From NCBI GenBank assembly GCA_030753015.1, contig JASMDC010000016.1:1-64000 (forward strand): DNA of 64,000 nt, in the 5' to 3' direction. The stretch is from Candidatus Undinarchaeales archaeon (GTDB lineage Archaea; SpSt-1190; JASMDC01). Below are positions 2,167-4,236 of the stretch, in pieces (position 1 is the stretch's first letter; every line of letters starts with the position of its first letter). The position numbers were made by a program, and so were the translations under genes. The notes under the pieces were generated by a model that worked only from the letters and a program-made list of their open reading frames with translations, was not told the DNA's origin and made no database searches.

Positions 2167-3294
2167 ATGACGAGGATCATCGAAGTGGGAGACGGCCCCA
2201 TGCACGAAGAGGTCCATCACACCAGGACCATCGATGCCGAACTAGAGGAACTCCTCCGCCATCAGAAGGCAACGATCAAGGTCATCGGTGCTGGCGGAGC
2301 TGGGAACAACACCATCACTCGGCTGATGGAGGTCGGAATAGAAGGTGCTGAGACCATCATCGTGAACACCGATGCACAGGACCTCCTGTACTCTGATGCG
2401 GACAAGAAGATTCTTCTTGGCAAGGATATCACCAATGGCCTCGGTGCCGGCTCCGACCCTTCTAAGGGCGAGGAAGCGGCCAGAGAGAACGAGCAGGACA
2501 TCAAGGACGCCCTTCACGGTGCCGACATGGTGTTCCTGACCTGCGGTCTCGGCGGGGGCACGGGCACGGGCTCCGGACCTGTCATCGCAGAAGTTGCAAA
2601 GAAGCTCGGTGCGCTCACCGTGGCCGTCGTCACCATGCCGTTCGAGATGGAAGGTGCAAAGCGGTACGAGAACGCCCGCAGCGGACTGGACAAGCTTCAG
2701 AGCGTCGTCGATACGCTCATCCTCATCCCCAATGACAAGCTCCTCGAGATAGTCCCCAACGTCCCGATCAACACATCGTTCAAGGTTGCCGACGAGATAC
2801 TCGTCAACGCCGTTAAAGGGATTGCTGAGCTTGTGACCAGGCCGGGTCTCGTGAACCTCGACTTCGCTGATATCAAAGCAGTAATGAACGAGGGTGGTCT
2901 TGCGATGATCGGTCTTGGTGAATCGGACACTGAGAACCGTGCCCTGGAGGCTGTCGAAAAGGCGATCAACAATCCGCTCCTTGACGTCGATATCACAGGC
3001 GCCAAGGGTGCGCTCGTCAATGTCTCTGGCGGACCAGATCTCACTCTGACAGAAGCGAAGGATGTTGTGTCCGCAATCTCCCAGAAGCTCGCACCGGATG
3101 CAAGGATAATCTGGGGTGCTCAGCTGGCAAAGGAGATGCAGCAGACCGTTCGTGTTATGCTCATCGTCACCGGCGTGAGCTCACCTCAGATCTTCGCACC
3201 GGAGCGGACCTTCCAGGCCAAAAAGAACGAGGAGATGAAGTCGGAGCTCGGTATCGAGTTCATCACTCCAAAAGGGAAGGCCCATGATTCCTGA
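2167..3294 (+). CDS. ftsZ: Cell division protein FtsZ
   Basis: Tubulin signature [18 protein letters not shown] motif, NVDAQDL-type motif. Confidence 0.97.
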
Positions 3295-3481
3295 ACCACA
3301 ACAGATCTCAAAAGACATCCGCAAGAAGCTGCGGGAGTACTACCGTGTGCTTCTCATAACTAAAAAGCCTGACAAGCAAGAGTTCATGGGCGTCGTCAAG
3401 GTAACAGGGCTGGGGATCGTGCTCATAGGTACAATTGGCCTTATTATCATGACCGCATTCACACTCTTGCCAATACAATAG
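3284..3481 (+). CDS. secE: Protein translocase SecE/Sec61-gamma subunit
   Basis: 65-aa single-TM protein between ftsZ and spt5; amphipathic helix then TM (VTGLGIVLIGTIGLIIMTAF). Confidence 0.85.
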   Translation: MIPEPQQISKDIRKKLREYYRVLLITKKPDKQEFMGVVKVTGLGIVLIGTIGLIIMTAFTLLPIQ

Positions 3482-3497
3482 GAACTAGGTGTTCATT

Positions 3498-3971
3498 ATG
3501 ACCGAACTGTTTGCCGTACGGACAACCGCCGGCCGCGAGGAGATGGTGCTCGACCGTGTCGTCGCCAGGGCCAAGAGGCTCACCATCGGTGTGAAGTCCG
3601 TCATCGCCCCAAAGCAGCTGAAAGGATACGTTGTCATCGAAGCGGATGAACTCTCCCAAGTGGAGGATGCCGTCAAGGGAATCCAATATGCCCGCGGGGT
3701 CGTCCGTGCCCCTATCTCGTTCGAGGAGGTCAAGCACTTCCTGACAGCAACGCCCACAGTCATCAATATCGAGAAAGGGGATCTCATCGAGCTCGTATCG
3801 GGACCGTTCAAGGGTGAGAAGGCCAAGGTAACGCGCGTCGACAAGATCAAACAGGACGTCACCGTCGAGCTCGTGCAGGCTGCGGTGCCCATCCCAGTCA
3901 CGATCAAGGTTGAATCCGTCAGGCTCATGGAGCGGCCGGAAGTACGGGAGGAGCCTACCTATGACGACTAA
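3498..3971 (+). CDS. spt5: Transcription elongation factor Spt5/NusG
   Basis: NGN domain plus KOW (IEKGDLIELVSGPFKGEKAKVTRVD); conserved position after SecE. Confidence 0.9.
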   Translation: MTELFAVRTTAGREEMVLDRVVARAKRLTIGVKSVIAPKQLKGYVVIEADELSQVEDAVKGIQYARGVVRAPISFEEVKHFLTATPTVINIEKGDLIELVSGPFKGEKAKVTRVDKIKQDVTVELVQAAVPIPVTIKVESVRLMERPEVREEPTYDD

Positions 3972-4236
3972 AGCTACTGAACTCATCAAGAAGAAGATGG
4001 GCATCCAGAAGGGTGCCGGCGACCACAAGAACGAGACAGCTGGCGATCTGAGTATGAAACTGGCCATTGAGGTCGCGAAGGAGAAGGCCCCAGCCTTGCT
4101 CGCCAACGATCTCAAAGGCGCCACAAAGGAGATCGTCGGGACGGCTCTGACCATGGGTATAACTGTCGAGGGGAAGGACCCTCGTGAGGCCCAGCGCGAG
4201 ATCTCAGAGGGCAAGTACGATTCCCTGTTCTCTTGA
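3961..4236 (+). CDS. Ribosomal protein L11, C-terminal domain only (91 aa)
   Basis: ATELIKKKMGIQKGAG...GDLSMKLAIEVAKEKAPALLANDLKGATKEIVGTALTMGITVEGKDPREAQREISEGKYDSLF matches archaeal L11 CTD; overlaps the spt5 stop, no N-terminal domain upstream. Confidence 0.85.
   Translation: MTTKATELIKKKMGIQKGAGDHKNETAGDLSMKLAIEVAKEKAPALLANDLKGATKEIVGTALTMGITVEGKDPREAQREISEGKYDSLFS

Follow-up and report, generated by a model that had tools for sequence, protein, structure and literature searches.

In the present study, the gene for ribosomal protein uL11 (rplK) was analysed in a 64,000-nucleotide stretch of archaeal DNA, positions 1 to 64,000 of contig JASMDC010000016.1 from a Candidatus Undinarchaeales archaeon (hereafter the window). 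This gene encodes only 91 amino acids (MTTKATELIKKKMGIQKGAGDHKNETAGDLSMKLAIEVAKEKAPALLANDLKGATKEIVGTALTMGITVEGKDPREAQREISEGKYDSLFS), beginning with MTTKATELIKKKMGIQKG and ending with KYDSLFS. First, the sole Pfam domain detected in the product is PF00298, the RNA-binding domain of L11, which is matched at positions 2-69 of 69 (E=2.5e-18). Second, NF002232, the model of the full-length archaeal protein, was aligned at model positions 73-158 of 164 only, and the resulting 105.5 bits are below the curated full-length cut-off of 162 bits. Third, the N-terminal domain (NTD; PF03946), which carries the GPPLGPALGPLG loop, is absent from the gene. These results agree with a preliminary description of this DNA, which considered the protein to be reduced to its C-terminal domain (CTD). 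That description also placed the stop codon of spt5 over the start of the L11 gene, and this was confirmed: spt5 is complete and ends, with its stop codon, within the L11 open reading frame (ORF), and thus there is no space for an NTD at this position of the operon. The Shine-Dalgarno sequence of the L11 gene, GGGAGGAG, was graded good.

The retained domain is well conserved. In an alignment of 99 full-length and 24 CTD-only L11 proteins, the window protein keeps 10 of the 11 columns that are at least 85% conserved among the full-length proteins, consistent with the initial view that this is not a decaying pseudogene, and Gly60 is kept in all 24 short proteins. The Pro-Pro pair of the linker, which is found in 99/99 and 94/99 full-length proteins at its two positions, is kept in none of the 24 CTD-only proteins (0/24), and Thr-Lys occupies the aligned positions in the window protein. 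An AlphaFold2 model built from 35 aligned CTDs showed a mean predicted local distance difference test (pLDDT) score of 84, and its best PDB match in Foldseek was 5d8h_C, the L11 of the M. jannaschii P-stalk base with thiostrepton, with a template-modelling (TM) score of 0.92 over the query and a root-mean-square deviation of 1.0 A. Helix 3, the linker helix that becomes ordered on the ribosome (PMC9122527), is predicted at residues 5-13; thus, the 91-residue protein starts where the linker helix starts.

The window corresponds to contig C25 in an assembly of 3.85 Mb (G000; 117 contigs, 98.92% complete, 5.01% contaminated), and the whole assembly was searched for the missing domain. A single PF00298 match was obtained, indicating a single-copy L11. 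No PF03946 match was found in the assembly at E<=1e-3, and NF002232, with all candidates scored at E<=10, gave one match and no second; both models matched in all 14 control genomes. Furthermore, all six frames of the window were scanned at the highest sensitivity with an NTD profile made for this purpose; nothing rose above noise, and the positive controls scored 88-111 bits. The preliminary description left two options, a lost domain or one encoded elsewhere, and saw a second full-length L11 gene as a possible objection; the searches recognised neither a separate NTD nor a second L11, so that the choice falls on loss. We consider it highly probable that the sole uL11 of this genome is a functional ribosomal protein that has dispensed with the NTD and the Pro-Pro linker, as one of several recurrent losses.

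The gene occupies its orthologous position in the conserved order ftsZ-secE-spt5-rplK (Table 1). The best match of the window Spt5 is that of a class mate, G004 (57% identity). The secE-like ORF showed 43% identity to the ORF at the same position in L242 by tblastn, and the Pfam search of this ORF gave no match. The PAS-DUF835 gene lies outside the ribosomal cluster, and L1, L10 and L12 do not come next after the L11 gene of the window.

Table 1. Features around the CTD-only uL11 gene in the window.
Feature	Position	Strand	Basis or remark
ftsZ, upstream cluster member	2167..3294	+	PF00091, PF12327; 68% identity to G004
secE-like small membrane protein	3284..3481	+	Position in the ftsZ-secE-spt5-L11 order; tblastn to same-position ORFs of relatives
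spt5, complete (NGN + KOW)	3498..3971	+	PF03439, PF00467; TIGR00405 1-142 of 145
Shine-Dalgarno sequence of L11	3946..3953	+	7-nt spacing to the L11 ATG; within the 3' end of spt5; read from sequence
uL11 (rplK), CTD only, 91 aa, ATG start	3961..4236	+	PF00298, NF002232, AlphaFold2 model
PAS-DUF835 protein, downstream of L11	4268..5311	+	PF05763 5.9e-33, weak PAS

Compared with full-length archaeal uL11 (NF002232/PRK01143; M. jannaschii 5col/5d8h and P. furiosus 4v6u), the window protein is alike in the sequence and fold of the CTD (phmmer against 4v6u_BH, 9.2e-27) and shares both the single copy and the ftsZ-secE-spt5-rplK context, whereas it is without the NTD (model positions 1-72) and without the Pro-Pro linker. 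The L11 of Poseidoniales (marine group II) is likewise a CTD only, starts at the same position of the linker and comes next after spt5. However, it shows only about 39% identity to the window protein, the two lineages are unrelated by EF-2, L1-L10-L12 follow the gene in Poseidoniales, and the Poseidoniales Spt5 has an extra N-terminal region that the window Spt5 does not have. The same structural unit, i.e. the CTD alone on 58-nt rRNA, is known from the L11 C76 CTD-rRNA fragments (1hc8, 1mms_B), but these were either made in the laboratory or are partial models of full-length bacterial L11, whereas the window form is a natural gene product.

The preliminary reading of a genuine CTD-only L11 was upheld, and the recurrence of this form across archaea goes beyond it. 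When GTDB genomes were scanned with the 91-residue protein, two further CTD-only proteins of the marine group II type were detected, L097 (UBA60) and L098 (Candidatus Poseidoniales). In the Poseidoniales class, L11 was found in 217 of 245 genomes, and about 197 of these score as CTD only; among the matches listed, all of the CTD-only proteins begin at NF002232 model position 64 or later. In the remaining 20 of the 217, L11 is either full-length or broken by a contig end. To judge from their genome size and from the distinct clade that they form in the tree, the twenty full-length genomes of this class are presumably marine group III. The Poseidoniales tested gave no NTD match above noise, including G076, in which the CTD-only gene sits on a 2.06-Mb contig. 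Among 398 further archaea, L11 was present in 391, with 372 above the full-length cut-off, and the low scorers examined include CTD-only proteins in G407, G461, G628 and G641 (family f72, genus g114), G450 (f89), G615 (f126) and G497 (f103). The starts of CTD-only proteins outside Poseidoniales include MADKQTTSELIKKELG, MAEKMSDMIKKEAG, MAKKEPRSETVKLIKKEM and MATVSELVKKEAKL. In f72 and in G450 the L11 CTD comes next after spt5, as in the window, with one small ORF between them in G628, and ftsZ-secE precede spt5-L11 in the f72 cluster. By parsimony on a tree of FtsZ and Spt5, the CTD-only trait requires 4 changes, and G615 and G497, which are outside this tree, would add up to two. The trees thus imply at least four independent losses of the NTD, in Poseidoniales, in genus g114 of f72, in f89 and in the window lineage, and possibly also in f126 and f103. 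The anatomy and the recurrence of CTD-only uL11 are held with high confidence. No earlier report of the loss of the L11 NTD in archaea was found in the open-access PMC literature, and one may exist outside it.

The f72 family might also indicate how the domain is lost. The sister genus, represented by G567, has kept the NTD, but its GPPLGPALGPLG loop is degenerate and reads GPNSAPKLSALKMN, suggesting that the function of the loop was lost before the whole domain in this family, with decay of the loop probably preceding loss of the NTD. Other full-length L11 proteins with a degenerate factor-contact loop were also observed: in addition to L369 (G567), these are L267 (G460) and L268, L269 and L271 (f37), and in the f37 proteins the linker region also contains a long, charged insertion.

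The placement of the window was examined with several markers. Full-length L11 is present in all nine other genomes compared from the same phylum (0.6-1.1 Mb each); this is the first half of what the preliminary description had named as speaking against a genuine short form, namely full-length relatives together with reads revealing a missing segment at the spt5-L11 junction. In the EF-2 tree, for which the gene lies on another contig, G000 joins the class mates that have full-length L11 (100/99), and a clade of Thermoplasmatota (100/99) that includes the Poseidoniales class is separate from them. For the first 10 kb, the tetranucleotide profile correlated at 0.68-0.98, mostly >0.84, with those of other large sampled stretches of the assembly. 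Since FtsZ (68%) and Spt5 (57%) are closest to those of G004, the contig did not enter as contamination from a known CTD-only group, and Poseidoniales contamination was rejected on these identities, the EF-2 grouping and the tetranucleotide correlation. Two observations were made in passing. G000 is 3.5 to 6 times the size of the other compared genomes of the phylum, though EF-2 groups them firmly. Also, L089 (DAOWAC010000003.1), which is labelled Chloroflexota, carries archaeal FtsZ, Spt5 and L11 that group with Diapherotrites at 100/100, which points to a probable binning error in that public genome.

Several points weigh against the view that the window encodes a functional short uL11. None of the relatives compared shares a genus, family or order with G000, so that the truncation in the exact lineage is represented by one assembly, and the position of the window among its class mates in the FtsZ and Spt5 tree has only moderate support (85/75). 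In addition, Ser64, which is found in 98/99 full-length proteins, is Thr in the window protein, and the 23S gene was not found in the G000 assembly. Finally, conservation is the sole basis for holding that the short form functions in ribosomes.

Among the alternative explanations, the one that survives best, though still unlikely, is that something else now does the work of the NTD at its site, either an unrelated protein or an added part of uL10, Spt5 or EF-2. The extra N-terminal region of about 130 aa in Poseidoniales Spt5 and a C-terminal extension on the L11 of G450 are in its favour; nevertheless, no extra part is common to the CTD-only lineages, the window Spt5 is of normal size, and the uL10 of f72 is shorter rather than longer. 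A change in EF-2 at first seemed linked to the loss. The residue before the EF-2 P-loop is Cys in G000, Cys or Ala in all ten Poseidoniales and Gly in 23 full-length genomes, and the non-Gly residue predicted for f72 was found as Ala in G407 and G628. However, Ala also occurs in G567 and G071, which have full-length L11, indicating that the change is not tied to loss of the NTD, and it was rejected as its partner.

Further features of these proteins were noted. The extra Spt5 region lies before NGN in L293:3571-4485, L294, L295, L307 and L308 (all Poseidoniales) and appears NUDIX-like by eye; in the L293 protein, Pfam detects NGN only. The uL10 proteins of three f72 CTD-only genomes (L329 in G628, L338 in G407 and L342 in G461) are 246-248 aa long and have no C-terminal acidic stalk tail, the P1 proteins of the same three genomes keep LSSLFG, and the uL10 of the sister genome G567 is about 293 aa. 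The f72 EF-2 genes are interrupted beside the P-loop in G628 (L331/L332) and G461 (L340) and uninterrupted in G407; G628 has an intein-like insert ending in VPDNKNFVAEGLIIHN and a frame change at IRNIATSS, and the insert in G461 lies before VHHGKTT. The FtsZ ORF of G461 (L303:1940-4141) has 733 aa, twice the usual length, possibly owing to an intein.

An assembly or binning artefact, in which the spt5-L11 junction of this contig was left without about 200 bp of an otherwise normal L11 gene, might be suspected from a single draft assembly with measurable contamination whose class mates have full-length L11, yet we regard it as very improbable. Such a deletion must be in frame and spare both spt5 and a well-spaced Shine-Dalgarno sequence, yet remove the Pro-Pro linker, and both FtsZ and Spt5 place the contig in its class. 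Because other lineages show the same truncation at the same place in the operon, because a 2.06-Mb Poseidoniales contig carries the CTD-only form, and because the linker Pro-Pro is lost, this explanation is strongly disfavoured; a re-adapted N-terminus and recurrence in other phyla are not expected of a fresh assembly deletion. A split protein, with a separate NTD gene whose product joins the CTD on the ribosome, is formally conceivable in a genome that is nearly complete and not closed, but there is very little probability left for it after the negative genome-wide searches of G000 and of the tested Poseidoniales. Bacteria can live without L11. That the gene is a pseudogene or disappearing relic in a ribosome that works without uL11, as might be suggested by the viability of yeast without the protein (PMC9122527), is the least credible explanation, given the intact ORF and Shine-Dalgarno sequence, the conserved CTD columns and the retention of the short form in about 197 Poseidoniales and several other lineages.

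In the preferred reading, that of a working uL11 without its NTD, binding to rRNA, incorporation into the ribosome and a way of coping with translation factors are inferred, and our confidence in the mechanism is moderate. The CTD is known to bind rRNA and the NTD to contact translation factors; in yeast, substitutions in the helix-1 GPLG decrease polyphenylalanine synthesis by ribosomes to 9-32%, and cells without uL11 grow slowly (PMC9122527). The CTD of the window protein has most likely kept its binding to the 58-nt H43/H44 domain of 23S rRNA, where it would close the GTPase-associated centre into its tertiary fold and help to seat the adjacent uL10. The contacts of the NTD with EF-2 and other factors would be missing, and factors might be recruited through the stalk tails of uL10/P1 and the rRNA loops themselves. 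The 58-nt rRNA of the GTPase-associated centre is intact in seven CTD-only Poseidoniales, including the positions that we take to be equivalent to A1067 and A1095 (E. coli numbering, assigned by alignment to a consensus). A compensating change in the rRNA was also considered and rejected, as no fixed difference in the 58 nt was tied to NTD loss in CTD-only Poseidoniales; the differences common to them are either shared with full-length lineages or not universal.

Descriptions of uL11 almost always treat its NTD and CTD as a single universal protein, in which the NTD is a mobile arm that contacts factors. The present results make it likely that archaea have lost this NTD at least four and perhaps six times, including in the ancestor of all Poseidoniales, and that natural ribosomes carry out elongation, initiation and release with their factors in its absence and should lack the normal thiopeptide pocket. 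Poseidoniales are among the most abundant archaea of the ocean, and several other groups are also without the domain. In practice, the 162-bit full-length cut-off used in L11 annotation can miss real genes, L11 marker alignments contain large gaps that are true and not signs of bad assemblies, and the structural models of archaeal ribosomes, derived from thermophiles, do not cover the CTD-only design. With natural ribosomes that are free of the NTD, the purpose of this domain becomes a comparative and testable question.
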